Shown here piece after piece: positions 19,091-43,524 of a DNA stretch of 64,000 bases. The DNA is taken from positions 124,001 to 188,000 of the forward strand of contig PGXY01000007.1 in NCBI GenBank assembly GCA_002839375.1. The letters run 5' to 3'. Positions within the stretch are counted from its first letter, which is position 1. Each line of letters starts with the position of its first letter. The position numbers and the translations under genes are program-made. The notes beneath the pieces are model-generated. The model ran no database searches. It saw only the letters and a list, made by a program, of their open reading frames with translations, and was not told the origin of the DNA. Source of the DNA: Spirochaetae bacterium HGW-Spirochaetae-1 (GTDB taxonomy: Bacteria; Spirochaetota; UBA4802; UBA5550).

Positions 19091-19375
19091 AACACGAGTA
19101 TATTTTCCTGATTTATAATTCTGGAAAAAAATTTCTTCCTTTATTATCCGTCCGGACGACTTTTTTTCTATCCCGTGCATTATATTATCAGAGCCGCATG
19201 CACCTTTCACTTTTTATACGTATCGATTCTTTATCCCAGTACATAGCCATATATCATTCTTCAGTGAACAGAAATTCTATACGGCATCATATCATCATAC
19301 AATTACGAGGGGCTCACTAAAGTCATCAAAATAATGTCCCTTGTGAGATTAACATCATACAAACGGAGGCAATAC

Positions 19376-20722
19376 ATGAAAGATTTACAGCTGCAGAACG
19401 TAGACATAATTGTAGTGGGTTCGGGAAGCGGCGGAGCCCGTGTCGCCAGCGAACTGGCCGGTAAAGGTAAAAAAGTGCTCATACTCGAAGGCAGCGGCGG
19501 AAACAGGATACACGGTACCTTCCTCTGGTCATTGCTTCACATATTCCTCCCCTTTAAAAGTATGCTTTTCACTCCGGAACTGCTCGGCATGGTACGCGGT
19601 CTCACTACGGGCGGAAGTTCGGTGTTTTATTACGGGACCGCGTTCCCGGTTATACACGAAGCTTTTAAAAAATATGGGATTGATATCACTGCAGAGGAAA
19701 AGGAGGCCCGAAAGGAACTGCCCATCGGCCCTCTCAAGGATGCCATGGTAACCCCCATGGCCAGGCGGATTATGGAAAGCGCCCGGTCGCTCGGATATGA
19801 CTGGAAACAACTTGATAAGTTCATGTATCAGGACCGTTGGCGGCCCGGTTATCAATTCGGCTACTATGGCGACAGGAAAAACGTAAAATGGAGCGCCAAA
19901 ATGGACGTTGACGAGGCTATAAAAAAAGGCGCCGTGCTGCTGAACAGGGCGAAGGTTAAAAAAGTTATTTTCGACGGGACAAGGGCCACGGGAGTTGAAA
20001 TGAAATACCGGGGACGAACCGTGCAGGTGACGGCAAAAACAATAATCGTGGCTGCCGGCGGAATCGGCACACCGGTCGTGCTCCGCAAGTCAGGCATAAA
20101 GGGCGTCGGTTACAATTATTTTTTTGACCCGCTCATCACCGTATGCGGAAAGGTAAAGGATGTCAGAAAACGGAAAGATGAAATCCCCATGACGGCCGGC
20201 TGCGTTATGCGCGATGAAGGGATTGTCATGACCGATATGGCCGAGCCCTTCATGCTGGACCAGGTATTCACCGTGTCGGCTTTTCGATTCTGGAGGATAT
20301 TTGAAACAAGAAAAACTCTCCGCATCATGATTAAAATCAGGGATGACCTGTCAGGAAACCTCACGGACCGCGGCGGGGTGCGGAAAAGACTCACCCCTGC
20401 CGACAGGGAAAAGCTCCGCAAGGGATACGATATGGCAAAGAACATCCTTCTTAATGCGGGCGCAAAGGGAATTTACAAAACCTGGAAGCTTGCGGCACAT
20501 CCCGGTGGAACCGTCCGTGTGGGGCATATGTTAGATGCCGATCTCAAGTTGAAAGGATATGACAACCTGTATGTATGTGATTGCTCCGTGATTCCCGAAC
20601 CGTTCGGGCTGCCGCCGGTGCTGACACTCGTATGCCTGGGGAAACGCCTGGCGAAGCACCTGCTGACTGAAAAAAAAGGCACTTCCAGGGCAAAAAAGCC
20701 CGCCTACGCACTCAAAAATTGA
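19376..20722 (+). CDS. GMC-type FAD oxidoreductase
   Basis: A flavoprotein with an N-terminal dinucleotide-binding motif 'IIVVGSGSGGARVASEL' (about residues 10-26) and a C-terminal GMC domain with 'AAHPGGTVRVG' and 'DCSVIPEPFGLPPVLT'. GMC enzymes oxidise alcohols or act as dehydrogenases on small substrates. The start at 19376 has GGAGG 7 bases upstream; the in-frame ATG at 19334 is unlikely. It is first in the strand-consistent series leading to 32373 and is separated from the next gene by 68 bases containing a stem-loop. The preceding 285 bases (19091-19375) hold no gene; I saw no clear promoter there. Its link with the cluster is positional. Confidence 0.85.
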   Translation: MKDLQLQNVDIIVVGSGSGGARVASELAGKGKKVLILEGSGGNRIHGTFLWSLLHIFLPFKSMLFTPELLGMVRGLTTGGSSVFYYGTAFPVIHEAFKKYGIDITAEEKEARKELPIGPLKDAMVTPMARRIMESARSLGYDWKQLDKFMYQDRWRPGYQFGYYGDRKNVKWSAKMDVDEAIKKGAVLLNRAKVKKVIFDGTRATGVEMKYRGRTVQVTAKTIIVAAGGIGTPVVLRKSGIKGVGYNYFFDPLITVCGKVKDVRKRKDEIPMTAGCVMRDEGIVMTDMAEPFMLDQVFTVSAFRFWRIFETRKTLRIMIKIRDDLSGNLTDRGGVRKRLTPADREKLRKGYDMAKNILLNAGAKGIYKTWKLAAHPGGTVRVGHMLDADLKLKGYDNLYVCDCSVIPEPFGLPPVLTLVCLGKRLAKHLLTEKKGTSRAKKPAYALKN

Positions 20723-20790: not shown

Positions 20791-22263
20791 ATGAACATTA
20801 AAAATACAGGTTCCGCAAAGAAGGCCGGCTACGACGGCGATGAAAACCGGGCGTTTCTCGGCAGCTTTATAAAGTCCTTCACACGGACCGAGGAATTCCG
20901 CGAAGTCGTTCACGCGGCCCTTCCTGAAGTATTCACCCTGTGGGCCGGGAAAAGCAGGATCAAGAAAAAACTTGCCGGCACCCTGGGCAGGTTCCTGGCA
21001 AAAGGATTCGCACCCCGGGGTGAATCAGCGGGAAGCCCCGTATTAGAAACCTGCGGAGACCCTGAATTCATACGGCAGGCCTCCACGCAGATGCCGGAAA
21101 TTTTCAATGCCGTGATTGCCGGTCTCAACGCCTTTTCCAGGGGCCTGTCTGAAATGCCCGTGGATGAGCACCGCCGCTGCCTGAAATCGGTTATTGAAAA
21201 TGCCGATGCGGGAGGAATCGGCGAGTTAATCACCAACCTGTTCAAAAGCGCCAACCTGCACCGGAGCGACCCTGATTCTCTGGTCGAAACACTCAGGCCG
21301 AAGGTCAGGTCCCTTATTGCCGGGATTGATTTTGGCGAATTAAAGGAAGCAGTGGACGGTTCGGCCGACAGCGTTACTGCTCTGACGGAAATGATCAATG
21401 AAGAGATGTGGGAATATCCCGCAAAGATGGTATGCCTGCTGTCACTCCTTCCCTCCCTGTTAAATATGGCGGTTCGGTCAGCGGTGAAAACAACGGCGCC
21501 TATCAACAGGCTGGCCCCGGATCTCCTGACCGATGTCGTCCTTTCCCTGGTACGCGAAATTGACGGTAAAAGTATAGGCTCACTTATAAACGAGCTGTGT
21601 GAAATAATAAGAAAAATCCATACCGGCAGCTCCCTTATAGGCGACAGGGGCAACCATGCCTTTTCCGCGGCAGTGTCGCAGCTTGGTGCCGCCACCCTGG
21701 GTTCCGTTGATATCCTTCTCCTTCTCAAGGCGCGGGGAATGCTTCGCGATATTGGAGACCTGGCAAGAATTTCCGCCGCAGAGATTCTCGGACAGAATCC
21801 CGCAATCGCCGCGGATTTTTTCCAGGGTCATTTCAGATCCCTGGTATCCTGGGTGCGGGCCTGGAGCCTGAAAGCCGATATCTTTGAAAGGGTTTTCACC
21901 GATGAGGACATTGCCAGGGAATTTGCCCGGGGCATGGGAGAGCTTGATGCCCAGGAGATGGCTTTCACGGCAAGCAGCATTTGCGGACTTTTCAACCAGG
22001 TTCGGCGTCTCTCGCCGGGAACGATTAAAAACTTCCTGTCGCAGTTTTTCAGTTCCCTCAATGAATCCACCGTGGCCGATGCTGCGCGTTGGTTTACCGG
22101 GGATCTTGTCCAATCAATGGAGCCTATAGCGCCGGAGATAATGCCGCCGATTATCAGCGGTATTGCAGAACTTATTGCCCCCCATGGAGAGATGTCAGCA
22201 GAAATGCAGGAAGCCTGTGAAAAACTCAGGAACGTTTTCAACCGCAAGGAGGTTTCGGCATGA
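20791..22263 (+). CDS. Unknown 490-residue helical protein at head of dehydratase/ACS-like cluster
   Basis: I do not recognise this family. The product is predicted largely alpha-helical and soluble, with repeated hydrophobic patterns such as 'LLTDVVLSLVREIDGKSIGSL' spread along its length and only a few scattered cysteines (for example 'ETCGDPEF', 'SICGLFNQ'), so it does not look like an Fe-S protein. Gene start is well supported by GAGGAGG 7-8 bases before the ATG. Its TGA overlaps the ATG of the HgdB-like gene (ATGA), which ties it to the cluster by translational coupling. It may be a scaffold, chaperone or lipid-binding partner; that is speculation. No signal peptide or clear membrane anchor. 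Confidence 0.8.
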   Translation: MNIKNTGSAKKAGYDGDENRAFLGSFIKSFTRTEEFREVVHAALPEVFTLWAGKSRIKKKLAGTLGRFLAKGFAPRGESAGSPVLETCGDPEFIRQASTQMPEIFNAVIAGLNAFSRGLSEMPVDEHRRCLKSVIENADAGGIGELITNLFKSANLHRSDPDSLVETLRPKVRSLIAGIDFGELKEAVDGSADSVTALTEMINEEMWEYPAKMVCLLSLLPSLLNMAVRSAVKTTAPINRLAPDLLTDVVLSLVREIDGKSIGSLINELCEIIRKIHTGSSLIGDRGNHAFSAAVSQLGAATLGSVDILLLLKARGMLRDIGDLARISAAEILGQNPAIAADFFQGHFRSLVSWVRAWSLKADIFERVFTDEDIAREFARGMGELDAQEMAFTASSICGLFNQVRRLSPGTIKNFLSQFFSSLNESTVADAARWFTGDLVQSMEPIAPEIMPPIISGIAELIAPHGEMSAEMQEACEKLRNVFNRKEVSA

Positions 22264-23411
22264 ATAAAGCATTCATGGAAGCGGCACTTACACTGAACAA
22301 TGATTATGTCCGGGAGTGGAAACAGGCCGGCAATAAGATCATAGGCTATACCTGTTCATATGTTCCCGACGAGCTCTTTTCAGCTGCCGGGATTCTGCCG
22401 TACCGGATACGGGGATTCGGCGCGACAGAGGCAACCATTGGAGATACATATTTCGGACCCTTTATATGCAGCCTCCCCAAGGCGATGCTGCAACTGGCAG
22501 GAGAAGGAAAGTTTGATTTCCTCGACGGTGCCATAATCACCCCGGGATGCGATTCCATGAGGCGTCTCGACGAGTGCTGGCGCAAGGCCGGCGAGGATAT
22601 CACGGGGATCATGCCGAAGTTTTTCTTCCACTTCGGGGTACCCCATAAATATACCGATTACTCTGTGAAATGGTTCATCGATGAGATACTGCGACTTAAA
22701 TCGGCCGTAGAGACCCATTTCGACAGAACAATAACCGGGGAAAAACTCAGTGATGCCATACGGCTCTTCAATAAAAGCCGTGATCTCCTGGACGAGCTCG
22801 ACAGGCTCCGGATCAGCGACGCTCCGGCCATCACGGGTACCGAGGCCATGGCGGTAATACTCGCCGGAACCACGATGCCCCGCGTCCCCTACGTGGAGCT
22901 GCTGGAGAAACTTATCAGCGACATTAAAAACAGCAATACGAGGATAAGCGGCATGACCAGGCTCATGCTTGTGGGCAGCGCCAGCGATGACGTAAATCTT
23001 GTGCAGTTAATCGAGGGAAACAAGGCCATCGTTGTAGGAGATAATCTCTGTTTCGGATCACGCTTTCATGTCGACCGCGTCGAAGAAGATGGAGACCCCA
23101 TAGAATCCCTGGCAAAACGATACCTGGCAAAGAATGAATGCCCCCGCATGTACGGAGAGTATGCAGGCCGCCTGAAAATGCTCATGGACAAGGCCGGCAA
23201 GGCAAAAGTCGATGGGGTAATCTTACAGAATATCCGTTTCTGCGACCTTCACGGCTCTGAGAACGGTCTTTTTGAGCGTGATCTCGAGAAAGCCGGCATA
23301 CCATGCCTGAAGATTGAGCGCGAATACGGCCCGCTGGTGGAAACGGGCCGGTTGAAAATGCGTGTCGACGCATTCCTGGAAAGAATCGGACAGAGGAGGC
23401 AAACTGCATGA
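22260..23411 (+). CDS. 2-hydroxyacyl-CoA dehydratase / benzoyl-CoA reductase family subunit, HgdB-like (module 1)
   Basis: 383 residues of the HgdB/BcrB/FldB fold that carries a [4Fe-4S] cluster or, in double-cubane proteins, an [8Fe-9S] cluster. The three N-terminal ligand cysteines are Cys32 ('GYTCSYVPDEL'), Cys70 ('PFICSLPKA') and Cys97 ('TPGCDSMRRL'), spacing 38 and 27, the same as in the module 2 counterpart. The C-terminal family motif 'NIRFCDLHGSENG' is also there. It should accept an electron from an ATP-dependent activase. Overlaps both neighbours by 4 bases. Whether it dehydrates a hydroxyacyl-CoA, reduces an aromatic CoA ester or is a double-cubane reductase cannot be decided from sequence. 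Confidence 0.88.
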   Translation: MNKAFMEAALTLNNDYVREWKQAGNKIIGYTCSYVPDELFSAAGILPYRIRGFGATEATIGDTYFGPFICSLPKAMLQLAGEGKFDFLDGAIITPGCDSMRRLDECWRKAGEDITGIMPKFFFHFGVPHKYTDYSVKWFIDEILRLKSAVETHFDRTITGEKLSDAIRLFNKSRDLLDELDRLRISDAPAITGTEAMAVILAGTTMPRVPYVELLEKLISDIKNSNTRISGMTRLMLVGSASDDVNLVQLIEGNKAIVVGDNLCFGSRFHVDRVEEDGDPIESLAKRYLAKNECPRMYGEYAGRLKMLMDKAGKAKVDGVILQNIRFCDLHGSENGLFERDLEKAGIPCLKIEREYGPLVETGRLKMRVDAFLERIGQRRQTA

Positions 23412-24817
23412 GACCTGAATTAAAAGAATACAAGTTTGATACGATGCTCTGGAGCACTTTCGTTGCCGCGTCAAAATTAAAAAATGGATCGGAAAAGGAA
23501 TATCGCAGCATGCTGCCCTATATCCCCTACTTCAACAGTACCGTTGACGCGCTGCTGAGATTGGGAGAACCGGGACGGCTTTTCATCGAATGCATAGCGA
23601 AGTATTTCGAGAATTATATAACGGCACGTGACAGGGGTTTTCATAATGCCGTCACGACATTCTGCTTCTCCCCGTCCATCCTCTATGCCATGGACGTATT
23701 TCCCATTTGCCTTGAGGTAATCTCCGTAGCCCAGACCTTTGCGTACAAACGGGGAACTGCTGAATTTCTCGACTATTGCAATGAAGTGGGATATACGGAA
23801 ACCTCGTGTTCGTCCCAGAGGGGAACCCTCGGCGCTTTTCTTGCCGGTCTGGGCGCTGACATCGATATGATACTGACCAATACACCCGGCGTATGCGACA
23901 CCAACGCGAATGCTTTCGCCTTTGCAGCGGCGTATCTCAACAAGCCGTTCTTTTCACTCGATATACCGCCGGTCCTGGTGGATCCCAGGACAGATGAATT
24001 CCAGGATTCTGATTTCAGGGCCCTCATCATTTTTCTTGAAAAGCAAACGGGCAGAAAACTCGACCGGGACCGTCTCCGCATCGTGCTCGACGAGGTCGCG
24101 AAGCAGGAGGAAATCGTTGCCGAGCTGGAAGACCTGGCGCGAATTGTTCCCAATCCGCTTCCCGTCGCCTATAATCTCATGGTCTATGCATCGCGCTTCC
24201 TCTTCTCCGGGATGAAGGAATGCACGGCAGTGCTGGAGTCAATGCGCAGGATTGGGACCGACAATGCTGATAATGGCCTTTCCGGTCTCTCCGGCGGTGT
24301 CGAAAAGATGCGTACTTTCTTCTGTTATATTGATCACTACACCAACAGCTTAAAGCTCTGGGATTTCCTCGACAGGAACGGTATCTGTTACCAGGGGAAC
24401 ATTCTCAGCCGTTCCTGGGCCAATACCGCTCCCCATGTAAAGGAATATCATACCGAAGCAGCGGCCTACTCTTTCGATAAAACCGACCTGGACTCCATGA
24501 TCAGGACCATGGCCGACCACAACTCCCGCATGCCCATGATAAAATCGATCCGCGGGCCCTATGACGCACCGGACATGTGGCTCCAGGACACCCTGTCACT
24601 GGCAAAAATGTACAATGCCGACTGCATCATATATAATGGTACACCGGGATGCCGGAACACCTGGGGCATGGTAAAACTCCTGGCGCGGGACACCGAAAAG
24701 GCCGGTATTCCAACATTCATCATGTATGGCGATGCCTTTGATGACCGGGTTGAATCCTGGGAGGCGTCACAGGACCGGCTTGAAGAATTTTTCCGAGTAC
24801 GGAGGTTAATGGCATGA
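23408..24817 (+). CDS. 2-hydroxyacyl-CoA dehydratase family subunit, HgdA-like (module 1)
   Basis: 469 residues, expected partner of the preceding HgdB-like subunit. Candidate Fe-S cysteines in the family positions are Cys86 ('TTFCFSPSIL'), Cys134 ('ETSCSSQRGTLG') and Cys163 ('TPGVCDTNANAF'). Near the C-terminus 'NGTPGCRNTWGMVKLL' matches the family's conserved end motif. Overlaps the upstream gene by 4 bases and the downstream activase by 4 bases (ATGA), so all three are likely translated together. The substrate pocket is not predictable from sequence. Its module 2 relative has lost the first of these cysteines. Confidence 0.85.
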   Translation: MRPELKEYKFDTMLWSTFVAASKLKNGSEKEYRSMLPYIPYFNSTVDALLRLGEPGRLFIECIAKYFENYITARDRGFHNAVTTFCFSPSILYAMDVFPICLEVISVAQTFAYKRGTAEFLDYCNEVGYTETSCSSQRGTLGAFLAGLGADIDMILTNTPGVCDTNANAFAFAAAYLNKPFFSLDIPPVLVDPRTDEFQDSDFRALIIFLEKQTGRKLDRDRLRIVLDEVAKQEEIVAELEDLARIVPNPLPVAYNLMVYASRFLFSGMKECTAVLESMRRIGTDNADNGLSGLSGGVEKMRTFFCYIDHYTNSLKLWDFLDRNGICYQGNILSRSWANTAPHVKEYHTEAAAYSFDKTDLDSMIRTMADHNSRMPMIKSIRGPYDAPDMWLQDTLSLAKMYNADCIIYNGTPGCRNTWGMVKLLARDTEKAGIPTFIMYGDAFDDRVESWEASQDRLEEFFRVRRLMA

Positions 24818-25605
24818 TAGTAGCCGGATGCGACGTGGGTTCCCTCACATCAAAAGCAGTGATAATGAAGGAGGGGAAAATAATCGAATCAATGATAATA
24901 AAGTCAAAGGCAAAGCCCGGTGACTCGGCAGATGAAGTCATGCGGCAGGCCCTTTCCAGGGCAGGACTCACCATGGAGGATATTTCGTATTGCGTTGGTA
25001 CGGGATACGGCCGTGACAGAATTTCTTTTGTAAACGAGGCGCTTACCGAGATCGCCTGTCACGGCAGGGGCGCCCAGTGGCTGATCCCATCGGCACGAAC
25101 CGTCATCGATATCGGCGGGCAGGACTGCAAAGCGCTGCGGCTCGACGCGAACGGCAACATGGTGAAGTTCACCGCCAACGACAAGTGCGCGTCGGGTACC
25201 GGCCGTTTTCTCGAGGTCATGGCGCGGGTTCTCCATGTGGAGCTTTCCGATCTTGGACAGTTATCCTCAGCATCAAAGAGCCCCATCAACCTGGCATCGG
25301 CCTGCACGGTATGGGCCCAGGCCGATGTTATCCAGCACCTTAACAACGGCGTTCCCGTGGCAGACATCGCAGCGGGCATCAATAGCGCCATGGCTGCCCG
25401 AATGTCGATCATCGTGAACAATATCGGCTTCGAACGGGATGTTGTCATGACCGGCGGCGTTGCCAAAAATACCGGCGTGGTATCAGCCCTTGAAAAATTG
25501 CTTGGATTGCGCATCAAGCGTGTCACCAAATCGGACCCGCAGCTCGCCGGCGCCATCGGTGCGGCACTCTACGCAGAGGATAAGTCAAAAGGAGGAAAAG
25601 CATGA
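24814..25605 (+). CDS. ATP-dependent activase (BadF/BadG/BcrA/HgdC family), first of two in module 1
   Basis: 263 residues with the ASKHA ATPase fold: phosphate loop 'GCDVGSLTSKAVIM' and second loop 'VIDIGGQDCKAL'. The two cysteines that hold the dimer-bridging [4Fe-4S] cluster are present, Cys125 ('NDKCASGTGRF') and Cys164 ('ASACTVWAQADV'), matching HgdC Cys127 and Cys166. Such proteins couple ATP hydrolysis to injection of one very low potential electron into the dehydratase partner. The gene overlaps the next activase by 4 bases. Two activases in a row raise the question of a BcrA/BcrD-style heterodimer, since each is about 260-270 residues. Confidence 0.93.
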   Translation: MIVAGCDVGSLTSKAVIMKEGKIIESMIIKSKAKPGDSADEVMRQALSRAGLTMEDISYCVGTGYGRDRISFVNEALTEIACHGRGAQWLIPSARTVIDIGGQDCKALRLDANGNMVKFTANDKCASGTGRFLEVMARVLHVELSDLGQLSSASKSPINLASACTVWAQADVIQHLNNGVPVADIAAGINSAMAARMSIIVNNIGFERDVVMTGGVAKNTGVVSALEKLLGLRIKRVTKSDPQLAGAIGAALYAEDKSKGGKA

Positions 25606-26423
25606 TTGTAGCAGGGTGTGATGTGGGCTCACTGACCGCGAAGGCAGTCATCATGCAGAACAATGAGATAATGTCATCGGCAGTTGCCCTGGCAAAGCAA
25701 TCACCGGAGGAATCGGCCCGCGAAGTCATGGACATGGCCATTAAAGCAGCGGGGCTTAGCATGAAGGACCTGGCATGCTGTGTCGGCACCGGGTACGGCA
25801 GGAAACATATTTCCTTCGTCAACAGCATAGAATCGGAAATAGCCTGCCACGCCCGGGGCGCGGTATGGCAGGCTCCGACCGTCAGAACGGTCATTGATAT
25901 CGGCGGCCAGGATGCAAAAGCCATCAGCGTCGATGGATCGGGCGCCGTGATCCGCTTCATCTATAACGACAAATGCGCATCGGGGACCGGCCGATTCCTG
26001 GAGGTTATAGCGGACGCCCTTGAGGTCAGGCTTGATGATCTGGGTGATATCTCAAAAAAATCAACGAAGAAAATAACCCTTTCGAACCAGTGCGTCGTTT
26101 TTGCCGAAACGGAGATCATCTCCCTGGTCAATGACGGCGCCGAAATCCCCGATATCATCCATGCCCTCCATAATGCCGTAGCAAACAGGGCCGCCGCCCT
26201 GGCGAAAAGCATCGCCGTAGGCGGAGATGTTGTCATGACCGGGGGTGTTGCCAGGAATACGGGGATGTTCGAGTCCCTGAAGAACGCCATGGGCGTAAAC
26301 CTTATCATGGTAAAAAACCCGCAGATAAACGGCGCCATCGGTGCCGCTATCATGGCAGAGGACTCCCTGCGTACGGGCGAAAGGGATGCAGCGCACCGGA
26401 AAGAAGAAGTCCCTGCGAATTGA
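25602..26423 (+). CDS. ATP-dependent activase, second of two in module 1
   Basis: 273 residues, clearly paralogous to the gene before it: the same 'IVAGCDVGSLT' start, 'VIDIGGQDAKAI', Cys125 ('NDKCASGTGRF') and Cys164 ('NQCVVFAETEII'). All elements needed for ATP binding and a shared [4Fe-4S] cluster are intact, so both copies look functional. A heterodimer with the first activase, or separate service to the two dehydratase modules, are both possible. The C-terminal tail after 'AAIMAED' is charged and differs from the paralog. Six bases separate it from the ACS-like gene. Confidence 0.93.
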   Translation: MIVAGCDVGSLTAKAVIMQNNEIMSSAVALAKQSPEESAREVMDMAIKAAGLSMKDLACCVGTGYGRKHISFVNSIESEIACHARGAVWQAPTVRTVIDIGGQDAKAISVDGSGAVIRFIYNDKCASGTGRFLEVIADALEVRLDDLGDISKKSTKKITLSNQCVVFAETEIISLVNDGAEIPDIIHALHNAVANRAAALAKSIAVGGDVVMTGGVARNTGMFESLKNAMGVNLIMVKNPQINGAIGAAIMAEDSLRTGERDAAHRKEEVPAN

Positions 26424-26429
26424 GGCGCA

Positions 26430-27164
26430 TTGAAACTTTTCGAAAATATCATCACCGGTCTCAGGTCATGGATGGATGACATGAAGGGATCATCCGCCGT
26501 CTATAATGAACGCTCTGTCGTTCATGGGACCTGGCCGGCAGGCGAACGGGGCAATATAGTATTGCAGAACGATACCGCCGTGGAGCTGGGCAATCCCCGC
26601 GATGAATCGGCATCATTCCTGTTATGGACAGACGACGGGGACCTGGTCCACGACGGCATGTTTACCTGCATCGGACCGGAAATATCATCCTATTCCCCCA
26701 GCCGCCTGCCCCTGGGCAAGGCGGTCATACTTGCCGTTACAGGCTTCACCGAGGACAACTGTTATGAGCGATACCGCGAAATTGAATTGATACGGTATGA
26801 TCTCAACCTCAGGGGCTACATGCTGCGTGCCGTATCCCAGCACATGCGGGAATGGAGCCGGATAAGCAGGCAGGCCATGGAGGACGGGTTTTCTCTCGAG
26901 ATACTCGCTTCGGTCCTCATGGAGCGGTACCGCCGGCTTGACTATGTTATAGCCGTGGAGATTCTCTTCGTGACCTCATCACCGGAGGATGTACGCTCAC
27001 TCCGGCACATGGGCGAAGGGGCAATGCGCCTTATAGGGGCAATGAATAAGATGGCCCGTGAGCTTTCCTTCGATTGCGGGACATGCGACTATACTGACAT
27101 CTGCGCAGAAATTGAAGGTTTGCGCTCAATGCGTAATTCAACAAAAAATAAGATTTCCTGTTGA
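26430..27164 (+). CDS. Acetyl-CoA-synthase middle-domain-like protein with CxxCx5C tail (module 1)
   Basis: A 244-residue protein resembling the middle domain of acetyl-CoA synthase (AcsB/CdhC): 'AVELGNPRDESASFLLW', 'IGPEI', 'LPLGKAVILAV', 'CYERYREIEL', 'RGYMLRAVSQHMREWSRIS' and 'VEILFVTSSPEDV' follow the order I remember for that domain. Where ACS continues into its Ni-Fe-S A-cluster domain (Cys-x2-Cys-x8-Cys), this protein stops after Cys216-x2-Cys219-x5-Cys225 ('FDCGTCDYTDIC'). The start is a TTG with GAGG upstream, 6 bases after the activase stop. It cannot be a full ACS. Metal or Fe-S binding by the three cysteines is inferred. The paralog at 30788 keeps the same motif, so it is under selection. 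Confidence 0.78.
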   Translation: MKLFENIITGLRSWMDDMKGSSAVYNERSVVHGTWPAGERGNIVLQNDTAVELGNPRDESASFLLWTDDGDLVHDGMFTCIGPEISSYSPSRLPLGKAVILAVTGFTEDNCYERYREIELIRYDLNLRGYMLRAVSQHMREWSRISRQAMEDGFSLEILASVLMERYRRLDYVIAVEILFVTSSPEDVRSLRHMGEGAMRLIGAMNKMARELSFDCGTCDYTDICAEIEGLRSMRNSTKNKISC

Positions 27165-27192: not shown

Positions 27193-28323
27193 ATGAAACA
27201 ATCCGCCGATATTTCCCTGTTTGACGATCTCCTGGATGAACCATTAAACCGCCTCGTTGAACAGGCCATGGATGAGAAGCGAGTCCCCGTGGGCTACACC
27301 TGCAGTTATGTCCCTGAAACACTCCTTTCCGCGGGAAAGCTTTTCCCGGTGCGCCTGAGGGCTCCCGGACTTACGGGGACCGAGCTGGCCGATACGTATC
27401 TCTCCAACGTCATCTGCTCCTATACCAAGAGCCTCCTGGAATATGCCCTGGGCGGAGGCTATGACTACCTGGGCGGTATCGTCTTTACTGCAAATTGCGA
27501 TCATATGCGTCGCCTCATGGATAACATTGAGTACCTCCGGAAACCGTCCTTTATCCACACCCTTGACGTTCCGCACCGGCGTGGCGAAGCTGCCCTTGAC
27601 TGGTTCACAGAAGAACTGGCCGTCCTTGCTGAAAAGCTTTCAGAACATTTCGGCATAGATGCTTTCGGCGACAATCTCGCGGGGGCAGTCAGAAACCGCA
27701 ACATGTTTTCCCGTCTCATCAGGGCAATCGGTGAACTGAGAAAGCATGACCCTCCCCTCATCACGGGTGGAGAGTTTCAGCGGATAATGATAGCCTCCCA
27801 GGTCACTCCCGTTGATCTCCTCGTACCGCTGCTGGAGGATTTTCACCGGGAGGCGATCGAACGGGATGGAGTCGGCCATTACCGGGCACGGATCATGGTT
27901 GTGGGCGGCGAGCTTGACGATTCTTCCTTTATCGATATCATCGAATCCACGGGCGGTCTCGTCGTGGCTGACCGGTTCTGCACCGGGTCCCTTCCCGCCC
28001 TCGATCCCGTTCCGGAGAACGGTGATCCCCTGAGGGACATCGCGGAACATACACTCAACAAAATCCTCTGCCCGCGGATGATGGAAGAATTCGGTGAACG
28101 CGCCTCGGCGATCAGGAGCAATGTGCTGGAATACGGGGCTGACGGCGTGATCATACAGGCAATAAAGTTCTGCGACACCTGGGGTGTCGAAGGAAGCACG
28201 CTGACCTCGGAACTCCGTTCCACGGGAATCCCCGTGCTGCGCCTGGACCGGGAATACCGTCCCGGTGCCGAGGGACAGCTTCGCACTCGAGTGCAGGCCT
28301 TTATTGAAAGCATGGGGAAATGA
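27193..28323 (+). CDS. 2-hydroxyacyl-CoA dehydratase family subunit, HgdB-like (module 2)
   Basis: 376 residues, paralog of the gene at 22260. Ligand cysteines Cys37 ('GYTCSYVPETL'), Cys75 ('NVICSYTKSL') and Cys102 ('TANCDHMRRLM') keep the 38/27 spacing. 'AIKFCDTWGVEGS' near the end matches the family's C-terminal motif. A GAGGAG ribosome site lies before the ATG and a 28-base gap separates it from module 1. The matching cysteine spacing across the two modules argues for the same kind of cluster. Partner: the HgdA-like gene that follows. Reaction unknown. Confidence 0.87.
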   Translation: MKQSADISLFDDLLDEPLNRLVEQAMDEKRVPVGYTCSYVPETLLSAGKLFPVRLRAPGLTGTELADTYLSNVICSYTKSLLEYALGGGYDYLGGIVFTANCDHMRRLMDNIEYLRKPSFIHTLDVPHRRGEAALDWFTEELAVLAEKLSEHFGIDAFGDNLAGAVRNRNMFSRLIRAIGELRKHDPPLITGGEFQRIMIASQVTPVDLLVPLLEDFHREAIERDGVGHYRARIMVVGGELDDSSFIDIIESTGGLVVADRFCTGSLPALDPVPENGDPLRDIAEHTLNKILCPRMMEEFGERASAIRSNVLEYGADGVIIQAIKFCDTWGVEGSTLTSELRSTGIPVLRLDREYRPGAEGQLRTRVQAFIESMGK

Positions 28324-28345: not shown

Positions 28346-29779
28346 ATGAATAAGAACAGGCCTTCCGTAAGCGATTATCTTACACATGCCAGGCATGTTG
28401 TACTAATTTTATCCAGCTTCGCCCTTCTCGCTCTCAGGCTCGGCCCATTGGGCCTGGTGCGGAATATCAGGCGGTATCCATGGATACTGATTCTCCTGCG
28501 GGCGCCTTTCCTCATGGGACGGCTTGCCCGGGGCAGGACGGGCCTGTACCGCGAGGCCAATGAACTGGTCATTTCCTTTATCGTAAGCAGAATGGCATCG
28601 CTGATTTACCATACATTGAGCGGAAAAAGCAATTGCATAATGCACCAGGAAATGGTGCCGCCAGAAATATCCCATGCCATGGGGCTTTCCGTATGGCCGG
28701 CGGAAATCCTGTCGATTCTTTTGCCTATTATTGATACCCACGCAGCGGAGCGCTATATCGACCGTTGTGAAAACGAGGGCATACCCCCCGATATATGCAG
28801 CCATGTGAAAATGACACTGGGTGTCGTGCTGAACGGCGAAATGCCTCCCGCATCCATAATAGTCAGCTCGAATCTTCCCTGTGACGGGAATATGACGGGG
28901 TATGAAATCACGCGGCGGTATAATGACGCCTCCATCTTCAGGCTCGACATCCCGTTCAATTTCTACGATGAGCGGGCTGCCGGGTACTTCGCCGGGGAGC
29001 TGAGAAGGATGGTCTCCTGGCTGGAAGAGAACACCCCGGGACGCATGGACTGGGACCGCCTTCGCAGGATATGCGAGGAGCGGAACCGCATGGCGGAAGC
29101 GGAGATCGAGCTCTGGGATATGATCAGCGCCCGCCCGGCGCCACTTGCCGCAGAACCGGTATACCTGAGTCACCTATGGGCGTTCAACATTGATCCGGGC
29201 AACCGGATCGCCACCCGTCACTTCATGCGGCTCATCGAAATGGCCAGGCGCAACCTCTCCATGGGCGTTCCGGCAGTGCGGGAAGAACGTTTCCGCGCCG
29301 TATTATGGAACCCTCCCATCCTCCATTTTGCCGACCTGTTCCGCTGGGCCGAAGAGGAATACGGCGTGGCCCTGATCATCGACAGCATGAGCTACAATTC
29401 TCAGCCCCTCATAGACACGACTTCATCAGATACGATTTTACGCGACCTCGGTAAAATCGTCATGCAGGGGCCCATGGCGCGTCATACCAGGGGGCCGGCC
29501 GTTAATTATATCGATGATATATTCAGGATATATCACCGCTTCAACCTTGACATGGTTTGGGTGGCGGGGCATATCGGATGCAAAAATACCATGGCCCTGA
29601 ACCAGATGCTGCGCGAGGCATGCAGGGAAAAAGGAGTACCGCTCCTCATTATCGAATACGATCTTTCCGATCCCCGCATCTGTTCCCACGAAGGCATCAT
29701 CCGCCAGATCGACCATTTCATGGAAAACGTCATGAAGACGGGACGGCTCGAAAGAACCGTCGAGCTTGCTGCACAATAA
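28346..29779 (+). CDS. 2-hydroxyacyl-CoA dehydratase family subunit, HgdA-like, lacking the first family cysteine (module 2)
   Basis: About 477 residues from ATG 28346, which has GGGGA upstream and avoids overlap with the previous gene. The second and third family cysteines are kept, Cys151 ('PPDICSHVKMTLG') and Cys179 ('SSNLPCDGNMTGYE'), as is 'AGHIGCKNTMALNQML' near the end. At the first position, where family members read C-S-Y-V-P or similar, it reads Q-E-M-V-P; a cysteine four residues earlier ('SNCIMHQEM') may or may not replace it. A hydrophobic stretch near the N-terminus ('VVLILSSFALLALRL') is not seen in the module 1 subunit. The altered site suggests a different cluster or a structural role. 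Confidence 0.82.
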   Translation: MNKNRPSVSDYLTHARHVVLILSSFALLALRLGPLGLVRNIRRYPWILILLRAPFLMGRLARGRTGLYREANELVISFIVSRMASLIYHTLSGKSNCIMHQEMVPPEISHAMGLSVWPAEILSILLPIIDTHAAERYIDRCENEGIPPDICSHVKMTLGVVLNGEMPPASIIVSSNLPCDGNMTGYEITRRYNDASIFRLDIPFNFYDERAAGYFAGELRRMVSWLEENTPGRMDWDRLRRICEERNRMAEAEIELWDMISARPAPLAAEPVYLSHLWAFNIDPGNRIATRHFMRLIEMARRNLSMGVPAVREERFRAVLWNPPILHFADLFRWAEEEYGVALIIDSMSYNSQPLIDTTSSDTILRDLGKIVMQGPMARHTRGPAVNYIDDIFRIYHRFNLDMVWVAGHIGCKNTMALNQMLREACREKGVPLLIIEYDLSDPRICSHEGIIRQIDHFMENVMKTGRLERTVELAAQ

Positions 29780-29798
29780 TAAAATGAAGGAGGCGGTG

Positions 29799-30641
29799 AT
29801 GGAAAAATATTATTACGGCGGCTGCGATGTGGGCTCCACCACGGGAAAGGCGGTAATCATGGATGATACGAGGATAGTGTCCAGTTCCATAGTTCCCAGC
29901 GAAGTGGACCCGGAAATAACGGCACGCAATGCCCTGAACGCGGCGCTCGAGGGCCTCTCGGACGTGAAAGATCTTCGCGACCTGGTCTATCTCATCGGTA
30001 CCGGTTACGGCAGGAACGAGGTTCCCTTCGCCGATGAAAACATTTCGGAGATAACATGCCACGCCAGGGGAGCCTTCTTTTCCGATCCATCCATCAAGAC
30101 CATCGTTGATATAGGCGGCCAGGACATGAAGGGCATTGCCGTAGCCGATGACGGGTCGGTCCTTGAATTTATAATGAATGACAAGTGCGCGGCAGGAACC
30201 GGACGCTTCTATGAGGCCATGAGCAGAATATTCCGAATGGATCTCCCGGAATTTTCTTCCCTGTCCCTTACGGCAAAAAAGATCATACCGGTGACGGCGC
30301 AGTGCAGTGTTTTTGCGGAAACGGAGGTAATTAGCCTCCTGGCAAAAAAAAATCCCCCCGAAAATATATGCGCGGGCATCCAGGCAGCCGTTGCCAAGCG
30401 ATGCTTCACCCTTTTAAAGAGGGTCGGCCTGCGACCGAAACTGACAGTGACCGGAGGCTGTGCAAAAAACCGGGGGCTGCTGAAATCACTGGAGGAACTG
30501 CTGCGCGTCGACATTGCACCTCTTAATCACGACCCCCAGATCATGGGAGCCGTGGGTGCCGCCATCCTGGCCAGGGAAAAGGCCCGCATGAAAACCGGCA
30601 CTGCGGCAACGGAAGAAAAACGTCATGCCATAAATAAATGA
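29799..30641 (+). CDS. ATP-dependent activase of module 2
   Basis: About 280 residues of the HgdC/BadF activase family: 'GGCDVGSTTGKAVIM', 'IVDIGGQDMKGI', cluster cysteines Cys130 ('NDKCAAGTGRF') and Cys169 ('TAQCSVFAETEV'). It should form a homodimer with a bridging [4Fe-4S] cluster and deliver electrons to the module 2 dehydratase-like pair. I choose ATG 29799, with AAGGAGG 5 bases upstream, over the TTG at 29766 or the ATG at 29784. The C-terminal tail is lysine-rich. A 146-base gap follows before the second ACS-like gene; that gap holds no gene and no clear terminator. Confidence 0.93.
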   Translation: MEKYYYGGCDVGSTTGKAVIMDDTRIVSSSIVPSEVDPEITARNALNAALEGLSDVKDLRDLVYLIGTGYGRNEVPFADENISEITCHARGAFFSDPSIKTIVDIGGQDMKGIAVADDGSVLEFIMNDKCAAGTGRFYEAMSRIFRMDLPEFSSLSLTAKKIIPVTAQCSVFAETEVISLLAKKNPPENICAGIQAAVAKRCFTLLKRVGLRPKLTVTGGCAKNRGLLKSLEELLRVDIAPLNHDPQIMGAVGAAILAREKARMKTGTAATEEKRHAINK

Positions 30642-30787: not shown

Positions 30788-31573
30788 ATGCAGACGATGC
30801 ATTATATGCTTTACAAAATAACGGATATCCTTCTCTATCATGACATGGACTTTTTCAGCAAACATATAGAAAAAATAAGGTCATTTATAGAAAGAAAGAA
30901 GCAAAACGGCTCAGTATCGGAGCTTTCTTTTGATCAAAATTTGACATGGCCCGAAGGTAATAACAGAAACATAGTGCTTGCTCCGGACATGGCCGTTGAA
31001 CTGGGAAACCCCCGTGACACCTCGACATCTTTCTTCCTCTGGACCGACGATCCTGATAAAGTTCGCAACGGTCAAATAACCATAGTGGGACCGGAACTGA
31101 AAAAATGCCAGGGTAAAAGCCTGCCCTTCGGGAAAATAGTTCTTGTTTCAGGCCGTGATTTCAACGAAGACAACAGCTACGAGCGTTACCGCGAAATGGA
31201 AAGCCTGCGCTATGAGCTGAACCTGAAGGGGTACATGCTCCGTGCAGCGTCGCAATACAAGCGTGAATGGAGCCGTATAAGCAATGAGGCACTGGACAAG
31301 GGATTATCCTTCGCCGTGCTGGGAAGCGCCCTGATGAAACAGCTCTATGCCTTTGAATATATCGAAGCAGTGGAAGTGATATTCATCACCTCGAGCCGTG
31401 ACGACGTCTTCGAGATGTGGTCCGTCAATGAAGAGATAAGCAGGATAATCGGCGCCATGAACAAGATGATGCAGGAGCTGTCCTTCGACTGCGACAGCTG
31501 CGATTTTACCGATGTCTGCAGCGAGGTGTCGGACCTGCGCCACATGCGGGATTCCATGATGAAGAAGGTATGA
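30788..31573 (+). CDS. Acetyl-CoA-synthase middle-domain-like protein with CxxCx5C tail (module 2)
   Basis: 261 residues, clear paralog of the protein at 26430 along its whole length: 'AVELGNPRDTSTSFFLW', 'IVGPEL', 'LPFGKIVLV', 'SYERYREMESLRYELNLKG', 'REWSRIS', 'VEVIFITSS'. It ends with Cys235-x2-Cys238-x5-Cys244 ('FDCDSCDFTDVC'), matching the module 1 spacing. The start is uncertain: ATG 30788 has a weak GGAG, while an in-frame ATG at 30845 would align better with the paralog's N-terminus. Its TGA overlaps the ATG of the CooC-like ATPase gene, so the two are probably made together, which supports a metal-cofactor role. No CO dehydrogenase is nearby. Confidence 0.78.
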   Translation: MQTMHYMLYKITDILLYHDMDFFSKHIEKIRSFIERKKQNGSVSELSFDQNLTWPEGNNRNIVLAPDMAVELGNPRDTSTSFFLWTDDPDKVRNGQITIVGPELKKCQGKSLPFGKIVLVSGRDFNEDNSYERYREMESLRYELNLKGYMLRAASQYKREWSRISNEALDKGLSFAVLGSALMKQLYAFEYIEAVEVIFITSSRDDVFEMWSVNEEISRIIGAMNKMMQELSFDCDSCDFTDVCSEVSDLRHMRDSMMKKV

Positions 31574-32373
31574 CCATGGGAAAAACCGGGAAAGCTAAAA
31601 CTATGATAATGGCCGTATGCGGCAAAGGCGGCGTGGGCAAAACCTCCATCAGCGCCTCCATCATCCGCATCCTGGCTGAAGACCTGAACCGGAAGGTGCT
31701 GGCCATCGACGCTGACCCGGCTGTCGGCCTTGCCACGGCACTGGGTTTCACCCCCGCAAGGACCGTGGACGAAATCCGCAATGATCTCATCAGCAGGGTG
31801 GAAAAAGGCCAGGGCGGCGATAAAAAAGAGCTCCTGAAACAGCTTGACTATGAAATATTCGAGGCCCTCACGGAAAAAGGCAACCTGGCCTTCCTTGCCA
31901 TCGGCCGGCCCGAGAAAGTGGGCTGCTACTGCCAGGTGAACGATTTTCTCAAGGACGTCATTGAAACCATCGCCATGAATTTCGATTATGTTGTCATCGA
32001 CGGCGAGGCCGGCATCGAGCAGGTCAACCGGCGCGTCATGGAATCAGTCACGCACCTCCTCCTTGTCTCCGACGCATCCATGAAGGGAATCACCGTGATA
32101 AAGACCATCAAAGAAGTTTCCGATTCAGCCATAGCCTACGATGAGGCGGGCCTCATTCTGAATCGTATCCGCGGCAGCGAAGAGGCGGACCGCCTGTCGA
32201 TCCCCGAAGGAATCAGGCTCATCGGCTGGGTCCCGGAAGACGACATGATCCGCGAGACCGATATCCAGGGAAAGAGCATCATGAACATGGCCGAATCACC
32301 GGCCATCAGGGCGGTGCGCAAAATCCTGCTTTCCTTCAATTTCCTGCAGCACGATACGGGCGTGGCTGTATGA
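31570..32373 (+). CDS. CooC-like nickel-maturation P-loop ATPase
   Basis: 267 residues of the MinD/SIMIBI class with a deviant Walker A 'CGKGGVGKTSIS' (about 17-28) and 'AIDADPAVGLATAL'. It carries a Cys-x-Cys at 119/121 ('VGCYCQVND'), the pattern that binds nickel or zinc at the dimer interface of CooC, which loads nickel into CO dehydrogenase; AcsF/CooC2 relatives do this for ACS. Switch region 'VVIDGEAGIEQVNRR' is also CooC-like. It is the last gene of the cluster and overlaps the ACS-like gene by 4 bases. That association suggests its client is the ACS-like or dehydratase-like protein (inference). A hairpin follows at 32403-32447. Confidence 0.9.
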   Translation: MTMGKTGKAKTMIMAVCGKGGVGKTSISASIIRILAEDLNRKVLAIDADPAVGLATALGFTPARTVDEIRNDLISRVEKGQGGDKKELLKQLDYEIFEALTEKGNLAFLAIGRPEKVGCYCQVNDFLKDVIETIAMNFDYVVIDGEAGIEQVNRRVMESVTHLLLVSDASMKGITVIKTIKEVSDSAIAYDEAGLILNRIRGSEEADRLSIPEGIRLIGWVPEDDMIRETDIQGKSIMNMAESPAIRAVRKILLSFNFLQHDTGVAV

Positions 32374-41403: not shown

Positions 41404-43524
41404 ATGAATCGATATTATAGATTTCGAATGGTATTAATACTTATCATTACAGTATGGGGCGGGCTTTCTCTATTTGCTTCAGAGCCGCTAATAATTGATA
41501 ATCAGCACTATACCTATACGGTAGGAAAAAATTTTGAAATTCTGGAAGATAAAAATCATATCTATACATATGAAAAACTTATTAAAGACCGTAATAGTAT
41601 ACAATTTAAAACGAATGATACTCCAAAGCCGAATTTCGGATTTACCAATTCCATATACTGGGTCCGCTTTAAGGTGGAGAACAGGTCTGATTACAAGGAT
41701 TTTATCCTGGAAATCGCATACCCTCAATTGGATTATATCACCCTTTATTATCAGGACAAGGGGGGGGCAGTTGTAAAAGAGGCGGGTGATCAATTGTCCA
41801 TTGCTGTCCGGGATGTTAAAAACCGCAACAGCGCTTTTAGATTGAGCCTTAAACCGGGAAGCGTGAATGAATTTTATATCAAAATAAAAAGTGAAGGGAA
41901 CATGCTTATGCCAGTAATACTATGGGAGGCCCACGCTTTTTATGCCAAGGACCATTACGAACAGATAATACTGGGCATTTTGTACGGCCTTATCCTGGTA
42001 ATGATTTTATATAATTTTTTTATATTCATATCAATAAAAGACATAAACTATCTCATCTATGTTTTTTTTCTTGTGTCTTTTTTTCTTTTCAGCGGAACTA
42101 TCAGCGGGGTTACATATGAATATTTTTTATATAACTTTCCATTTCTTATAAACAAACTTATGGCCTTCAGTATTTCCGCTGTCATTTTTACCTCATCCCT
42201 TTTTGCCATGTCCTTTCTGCAAACGAAAATAAATCAGCCGCGGGTCCACAAAATACTTATTGGGGTCCTCTCCTTTTCATTTATTTTAATGGCCCTGAGT
42301 TTTTTTGTTAAATATATATTTATCATCCGCGTATCCGCGATATCGGTAATTTTTCTTTTTGTATTTCTATTTGCGGTAGCTATAAAAAGTTTGGTTAACA
42401 AATACAGGCCGGCCCGTTTTTATGTGCTGGCATGGTCAATCGCCTATGTAGGGTATATAATTTTTGCCTTAAAAAACTTCGGGATTATACAATCAACCTT
42501 TGTCACGGAATACAGCTCTCAAATAGGCACGTCAATACTGGTGGTTCTTCTATCTCTTGCTCTTGCCGACCGTATCAATATTTCAAAAGAGGAAAAAGAA
42601 AAGGCCCAGAGTGAATTAATTGAAAATCAGAAGAAATCCCTGGAAGACCAGATAACCATGACACGGTCTTTTGAGCGTTTTGTTCCCAAAGAGTTTTTAA
42701 CCTTATTAAATAAAAAGAGTATTCTCGATGTCACACTGGGGGACAGCGTAGAGCTTGAAATGACGGTCATGTTTTCAGATATCCGTGCCTTTACAACTCT
42801 GTCGGAAAATATGACCATTGAAGAGAATTTTAAGTTTGTTAATTCATATTTAAAGCGCGTTAATCCTATCATTGTGGACAATTTCGGATTTATAGATAAA
42901 TATATTGGTGATGCGGTCATGGCTCTTTTTTACCGGAAGCCGCTTGATGCAGTCAAAGCCGCGGTTGAAATTCAAAAAGAAGTGCAGGTATATAACGGGC
43001 ACCGGGCCAGCGTGGGCTATAATCCGATTCAAATAGGCGTGGGACTGCATCTTGGGACATTGATGCTGGGGACAATCGGTCAGGAAAGCAGGATTGACAC
43101 AACTGTAATTTCTGATTCAGTCAACCTTACATCACGGCTTGAAGGTTTGAACAAACTCTATGGGGCGGGGATTATTATTTCAGAAATGATTGTCTCCGCT
43201 GCTCCGGACCTGCCCTTTGCCGTCAGGTATCTTGACAATGTGACGGTTAAAGGAAAGAATAAACCCATTGCTATTTATGAAGTAATTGACGGGCTGCAGG
43301 AAGAGGTCGCGGCCCTGAAAATAAAAACAACGGACCTTTTCAAACAGGGTGTTGAAGTGTTGCAGGAGAAGGGGTGCAACAAGGCCCTTGAATTATTTAA
43401 TGAGATTCTGACAATCAACCCTGATGATAAAGCAGCCATGCTTTACAGGGACCGGTGTAATTATTTTATCGAACACGGATTCCCGGAAGACTGGTGTGGA
43501 GTGTGGGACATCAAAGAGAAGTAG
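41404..43524 (+). CDS. 7TMR-DISM receptor fused to class III adenylate/guanylate cyclase
   Basis: 706 residues. Signal peptide (1-25), a periplasmic 7TMR-DISMED2-type domain (about 30-165, 'FTNSIYWVRFKVEN'), seven membrane helices (about 180-390), a short coiled coil, then a class III cyclase domain. It has the metal aspartates in 'MFSDIRAFTTLSE' (about 460) and 'KYIGDAVMALFY' (about 505), and the transition-state Asn/Arg in 'SDSVNLTSRLEGL' (about 575). The C-terminal 70 residues ('FKQGVEVLQEKGCNKALELF') resemble a TPR pair. It should make cAMP (or cGMP) on a periplasmic cue. RBS AGAGGAG lies before the ATG, and a good promoter is at 41271-41299. This architecture is common in Leptospira and relatives. 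Confidence 0.93.
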   Translation: MNRYYRFRMVLILIITVWGGLSLFASEPLIIDNQHYTYTVGKNFEILEDKNHIYTYEKLIKDRNSIQFKTNDTPKPNFGFTNSIYWVRFKVENRSDYKDFILEIAYPQLDYITLYYQDKGGAVVKEAGDQLSIAVRDVKNRNSAFRLSLKPGSVNEFYIKIKSEGNMLMPVILWEAHAFYAKDHYEQIILGILYGLILVMILYNFFIFISIKDINYLIYVFFLVSFFLFSGTISGVTYEYFLYNFPFLINKLMAFSISAVIFTSSLFAMSFLQTKINQPRVHKILIGVLSFSFILMALSFFVKYIFIIRVSAISVIFLFVFLFAVAIKSLVNKYRPARFYVLAWSIAYVGYIIFALKNFGIIQSTFVTEYSSQIGTSILVVLLSLALADRINISKEEKEKAQSELIENQKKSLEDQITMTRSFERFVPKEFLTLLNKKSILDVTLGDSVELEMTVMFSDIRAFTTLSENMTIEENFKFVNSYLKRVNPIIVDNFGFIDKYIGDAVMALFYRKPLDAVKAAVEIQKEVQVYNGHRASVGYNPIQIGVGLHLGTLMLGTIGQESRIDTTVISDSVNLTSRLEGLNKLYGAGIIISEMIVSAAPDLPFAVRYLDNVTVKGKNKPIAIYEVIDGLQEEVAALKIKTTDLFKQGVEVLQEKGCNKALELFNEILTINPDDKAAMLYRDRCNYFIEHGFPEDWCGVWDIKEK

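Follow-up and report, generated by a model that had tools for sequence, protein, structure and literature searches.

A CooC-family ATPase next to an ACS middle-domain gene in a reductase-type gene cluster of Spirochaetae bacterium HGW-Spirochaetae-1

RESULTS

Gene content of the cluster

The window, by which we mean the whole stretch of 64,000 nucleotides analysed here (contig PGXY01000007.1, positions 124,001 to 188,000 of the forward strand), holds a cluster of 12 genes, among them genes for subunits and activases of the benzoyl-CoA reductase type, two ACS middle-domain proteins (ACSd1 and ACSd2) and a CooC-family ATPase (Table 1). The CooC ORF encodes 267 aa, starts with ATG and overlaps the ACSd2 gene by 4 bp, its start at 31570 lying within the final codons of ACSd2, which ends at 31573.

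Table 1. Genes of the cluster in the window and the features by which they were recognized
Gene product	Position	Strand	Features
GMC-family FAD oxidoreductase	19334..20722	+	PF00732 62.6 bits; cluster member in relatives
U490, conserved all-helical protein	20791..22263	+	no family match
HGDa, BzdN-like subunit	22260..23411	+	all six [8Fe-9S] Cys: C32, C70, C97, C264, C294, C328
HGDb, distant BzdO-like subunit	23408..24817	+	invariant Cys C134, C163, C415
BadF/BzdQ-like activase 1	24814..25605	+	TIGR00241 250.6 bits; PDB 4eht E 1.4e-70
BadF-like activase 2	25602..26423	+	TIGR00241 239.4 bits
ACSd1, second ACS middle-domain protein	26430..27164	+	same Cys tail as ACSd2; sequence match; groups with Spirochaetota copies
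HGDc, second BzdN-like subunit	27193..28323	+	six [8Fe-9S] Cys, 26/26
HGDd, second large HGD-D subunit	28346..29779	+	PF06050 187.6 bits
BadF-like activase 3	29796..30641	+	TIGR00241 236.8 bits
ACSd2, ACS middle-domain protein	30788..31573	+	PF03598 59.9 bits; C-x2-C-x5-C tail (C235, C238, C244)
CooC-family MinD-type ATPase	31570..32373	+	Walker A GKGGVGKTS; CxC = C119/C121

The cysteines of HGDa and HGDc match the six [8Fe-9S] ligands of BzdN (C36, C73, C100, C263, C293 and C327), and those of HGDb match the three cysteines that bind [4Fe-4S] in BzdO, as given in PMC11971306. They are kept in 51-52 of 52 rows for HGDa and in 67/67 for HGDb. The NCBIfam cut-offs for benzoyl-CoA reductase are not reached (154.6 against 453.8 for bzdN and 35 against 448.6 for bzdO). 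U490 gave no Pfam or NCBIfam match, no Foldseek match in the PDB at E <= 0.001 and no VIA-align match with Z >=5. Elsewhere in the window lie a gene for a protein of 2900 aa with glycosyl hydrolase 94 domains (6626-15328) and one for a 7TMR-DISM protein with an adenylate/guanylate cyclase domain (41404-43524).

The two ACSd paralogues of the window cluster are of differing lineage, and cooC follows the second only. In the ACSd tree, from which up to four named rows and all rows outside 215-300 aa were dropped, ACSd1 (70% to locus L082) clusters with its Spirochaetota neighbours with support 100/96, and ACSd2 falls outside the Spirochaetota set that holds ACSd1. L082 is also the best match for nine of the 12 cluster genes, the exceptions being the activase gene at 29796, ACSd2 and CooC. 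In the CooC tree the window copy lies near the copies of genomes G102 and G158, and we do not claim for it a joint transfer with ACSd2 as a cassette. In the window CooC no longer comes after ACSd1 and overlaps ACSd2 instead; it has stayed with an ACSd in spite of the rearrangement of the operon.

Fold and cysteine tail of ACSd

The similarity of ACSd (261 aa) to ACS is confined to the middle part of the latter, the N-terminal and A-cluster domains being absent. Residues 49-228 of the AlphaFold2 model of ACSd2 (mean pLDDT 88.3) superpose on residues 316-495 of ACS from M. thermoacetica (1oao_C; Z 20.0, rmsd 2.1, 172 aligned), and on this model ACSd is predicted to have the ACS middle-domain fold. 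According to PMC12289521, the N-terminal domain of ACS ends near residue 315, and in the C. autoethanogenum enzyme CoA is bound by the middle domain.

The C-x2-C-x5-C tail (C235/C238/C244) is invariant in 74/74 ACSd rows. C235 of ACSd2 comes seven residues past the structure-matched part, where the A-cluster of ACS begins, and the corresponding position in true ACS holds C-x2-C-x8-C-x9-C in 13/13 sequences, which is the A-cluster motif. A profile alignment with hhalign paired C235 and C238 with the first two A-cluster cysteines. Once the three tail cysteines had been masked, however, the tail was left unaligned and the alignment ended at residue 212, so that what supports equating the tail with the A-cluster motif is the cysteines and where they lie, and the equivalence is suggestive only. 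The tail of the ACSd2 model is of low confidence (pLDDT block means 57-70). The full A-cluster set comprises four cluster cysteines and a C-G-C, which provides the nickel ligands. In ACSd, three conserved cysteines are all that was found; it has neither the fourth [4Fe-4S] cysteine of ACS nor its C-G-C ligands, and any nickel site there would therefore need ligands from elsewhere.

The CooC-family ATPase and its relatives

The best PDB match of the window ATPase is C. hydrogenoformans CooC (3kje, E 5.2e-19), with whose CxC its Cys119-Tyr-Cys121 aligns; the second-best solved relative is an archaeal MinD (E 3.3e-10). In C. hydrogenoformans CooC-1 the corresponding pair, C112/C114, binds a Zn or Ni that bridges the two monomers (PMC6006190). 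In an alignment limited, like those behind the ACSd and HGD cysteine counts, to ORFs above length limits, C119 and C121 are kept in 67/67 relatives (68 rows, one with a gap), and G18, K19, G20, G21, G23, K24 and T25 of the deviant Walker A motif, GKGGVGKTS in the window protein, are conserved in >=97% of the rows. On sequence grounds the window protein is a member of the CooC family, but no orthologue of CODH-linked CooC. It is the one CooC copy in the genome.

The relationship to other CooC proteins was examined in two trees, both built without an AcsF reference sequence. Thinning 132 CooC ORFs at 72% identity and 330 aa gave a first tree of 77 rows, in which the ACSd-linked label changes twice, since L124, whose ACSd is partly matched, nests inside the ACSd-linked set (48 rows, SH-aLRT 93). 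In a second tree of 71 rows, from which L188, a MinD-like row, 3kje, L124, L162 and L106 (long or odd) had been removed, the ACSd-linked CooC proteins make up one side of a single branch (46/71 rows, support 100/100). Residues such as G53, Q151 and V156 are fixed in the ACSd-linked proteins (47/47 each) and seldom or never seen in the remaining 28 rows. In the second tree, ACSd-linked CooC forms a clade separate from CODH-linked CooC.

CODH and full-length ACS in the window genome and in related genomes

The window genome assembly comprises 5,201,416 bases in 14 contigs, is 96.48% complete and is not closed. No CODH was detected in it with TIGR01702 (cut-off 478), whose single match scored 27 bits, in a search that gave a match in the E. 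coli control genome too. A full ACS (acsB) was not found either, the PF03598 matches in the genome being two genes only, namely the two ACSd copies of the window. Across 20 ACSd-carrying genomes, TIGR01702 exceeded the cut-off in eight, gave fragments or weak matches in four and no match in eight, the last reaching up to 99% completeness. All eight genomes with a full CODH have additional copies of CooC, located on the contigs that carry CODH. Genes of the [NiFe]-hydrogenase family and HypA are present in the window genome, which makes nickel use by the organism plausible, though not tied to CooC, and nickel for that reason also plausible for the CooC system.

These results bear on an earlier note on this DNA, made from the sequence alone, whose overall interpretation is partly supported. 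Its description of a CooC-like ATPase with intact CxC and a gene overlapping an ACS-like gene is borne out, as is its remark that no CODH client is in sight. The neighbour is indeed related to ACS; it is not a full ACS, consisting of the middle domain and a three-cysteine tail, and it occurs in two copies in the window. Of the checks that the note proposed, the tree places the window protein in the ACSd-linked set, split from CODH-linked CooC, and the search for cooS or acsB elsewhere in the genome detected neither. The combination that would have spoken against the note, a tight grouping with CODH-linked CooC and a CODH locus lacking a CooC of its own, was not seen: all eight relatives with a full CODH carry other CooC copies on the contigs that bear it.

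A gene cluster conserved across phyla

When one genome from each of 84,980 species was scanned with close ACSd members only as query, 77 ACSd loci came up, in records whose titles include Desulfobacteraceae, Desulfobacterales, Smithella, Spirochaetes, Actinomycetota, Candidatus Geothermincola, Dehalococcoidia and Bacillota; the cluster spans Desulfobacterota, Spirochaetota, Actinomycetota and Dehalococcoidia. In relatives the genes run GMC oxidoreductase, U490, HGDa, HGDb, BadF, BadF, ACSd and CooC, often with HGDc, HGDd and BadF after them. Of 72 loci that leave room downstream, 63 have CooC directly after ACSd, or 64 when L115, where the ORF call is an artefact, is included; CooC keeps this place in the 21 loci where a ferredoxin-like gene with two [4Fe-4S] clusters is inserted ahead of ACSd. 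HGD genes lie <=9 kb away in 56/64 loci with room. The BadF-ACSd-CooC unit is kept even in divergent forms, where ACSd is 20-25% identical, and the activases are conserved in the cluster to the same degree as ACSd. Close HGDb was found in 16 of 296 Spirochaetota genomes, all 16 of which also have ACSd and the ACSd-type CooC.

No CooC adjoins ACSd in 8/72 loci (L057, L061, L067, L085, L102, L111, L114 and L121), and ACSd can therefore occur without an adjacent CooC. Some of these ACSd genes stand beside unrelated genes, of the recC and hemD types; the orphans L057:10001-10723 and L067:157-957 lie immediately upstream of recC-like genes.

The core is flanked by genes for acyl-CoA dehydrogenases, enoyl-CoA hydratase, thiolase, CoA ligase and an AOR-family enzyme, and these predicted functions point to CoA-thioester catabolism but to no single compound. 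In one locus a gene of the aldehyde:ferredoxin-oxidoreductase family lies directly downstream of the cluster (L054:15266-17257), with relatives in eight loci, and in another a pyruvate-formate-lyase-like glycyl radical enzyme is encoded a few kb downstream (L099:14258-16744). A description of this cluster was not found in an open-licence literature library, outside which most subscription journals lie.

DISCUSSION

The enzymes known to be served by CooC/AcsF ATPases are CODH and ACS, both of them nickel enzymes. That the window CooC serves a client other than CODH, as the earlier note proposed, is well supported by the lack of a detectable cooS or acsB, by the ACSd-carrying genomes that give no TIGR01702 match and by the fully supported CooC clade. 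With no CODH detected, and with a mini-ACS as neighbour in a reductase cluster, the target of this CooC is therefore probably something new. An AcsF-like service to ACSd is the most economical reading, and we incline, with rather more confidence than doubt, to the view that the protein is a CooC/AcsF-type maturase dedicated to ACSd within a hitherto undescribed BzdNOPQ-like CoA-thioester reductase system. ACSd would then be the direct client, nickel the presumed metal and a CoA thioester the likely substrate. The ATPase would dimerize by way of a metal bound by the CxC motif of each monomer, and ATP binding and hydrolysis would load or open a metal or Fe-S site at the C-x2-C-x5-C tail of ACSd, by metal insertion or cluster remodelling. 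Matured ACSd could dock the CoA thioester and act as an electron or metal subunit for the two-subunit HGD modules, whose [8Fe-9S] and three-cysteine [4Fe-4S] clusters would receive low-potential electrons from the BadF activases. A bolder version, which we regard as unlikely, would make the system a nickel or mixed-metal branch of the benzoyl-CoA reductase/double-cubane family, in which an A-cluster-like site of ACSd, installed by its own CooC, works with the [8Fe-9S] subunits in ATP-driven chemistry of an organometallic type on a CoA thioester.

It could also be that CooC works directly on the clusters of the HGD and BadF proteins, for example on the double-cubane cluster, with ACSd as an adaptor or CoA-binding subunit. 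HGD and BadF genes do occur in nearly all the same loci, the HGD genes mostly within the distance given above, and all six [8Fe-9S] cysteines are kept in both HGDa and HGDc. We nevertheless consider this rather doubtful, given that CooC keeps with ACSd where the contact between activase and ACSd is broken, and does so in the window as well. No CooC is known from E. coli. Yet BzdNO, which has the same cluster types, was produced there from a plasmid with bzdNO (PMC11971306).

The maturase reading has also to be set against that of a NifH-like reductase, in which the CxC pairs would bind a [4Fe-4S] cluster within the dimer and hand electrons on, driven by ATP hydrolysis, to ACSd or HGD. In this reductase family the known ATP-driven donors of electrons are BadF-type activases, and with three of them already present such a role for CooC seems quite improbable. 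NifH does share the MinD superfamily with CooC, low-potential cluster chemistry would suit it, and the CxC site of the dimer offers four cysteines, but the closest solved relative is a CooC, a binder of Zn or Ni (PMC6006190 for both). As to a conventional maturase of CODH/ACS in a genome that has lately lost its CODH or whose assembly lacks it, the unclosed, 96.5% complete assembly and the CODH of 8/20 ACSd-carrying relatives would allow for it; the separate CooC clade, the 8/20 ACSd genomes of up to 99% completeness with no TIGR01702 match and the distinct CooC copies found on the same contigs as CODH in the eight full-CODH genomes make it scarcely credible. A remote CODH elsewhere in the genome was likewise rejected as client, on the TIGR01702 and PF03598 searches, the single-copy CooC, the separate clade and the ACSd genomes that gave no CODH match.

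If ACSd is the client, the range of the CooC family would grow from full ACS, as served by AcsF, to an ACS fragment in a reductase cluster. A large separate CooC clade tied to such a fragment in several phyla, including genomes without detectable CODH, would broaden the role of this maturation family and would suggest that part of the ancient ACS has been reused in ATP-driven reductases. Should the nickel or mixed-metal reading be true, ACS-type nickel chemistry would exist outside CO metabolism.

Among known systems, the window CooC resembles C. hydrogenoformans CooC-1 (3kje/3kjg/3kjh/3kji) in length, deviant Walker A, CxC and overall sequence, but differs from CODH-linked CooC in having no CODH nearby or detected, in its separate clade and in clade residues such as G53, Q151, N153 and V156. 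AcsF, in work of Gregg et al. from 2016, is said to insert nickel into the A-cluster of ACS in an ATP-dependent manner. The likeness to it lies in the pairing of a CooC-family ATPase with an ACS-derived protein, whereas the ACS-derived partner in this cluster is a fragment that lacks the nickel ligands of the A-cluster. ACSd has the middle-domain fold and the ELGxP and WxR motifs in common with ACS/CdhC (PF03598), but has neither the N-terminal nor the A-cluster domain, and carries C-x2-C-x5-C in place of C-x2-C-x8-C-x9-C. With the class I benzoyl-CoA reductase BzdNOPQ (8s02; PMC11971306) the cluster shares the subunit plan, the six [8Fe-9S] and three [4Fe-4S] cysteines and the paired activases, although it scores far below the NCBIfam cut-offs and adds ACSd, CooC, the GMC oxidoreductase and U490. 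The model closest to HGDa (174.4 bits) and HGDc (166.1) is that of the double-cubane cluster protein DCCP (NF040772), whose cut-off of 350 neither attains; DCCP is a homodimer according to PMC11971306, whereas the small subunits of the window are paired with divergent large subunits.
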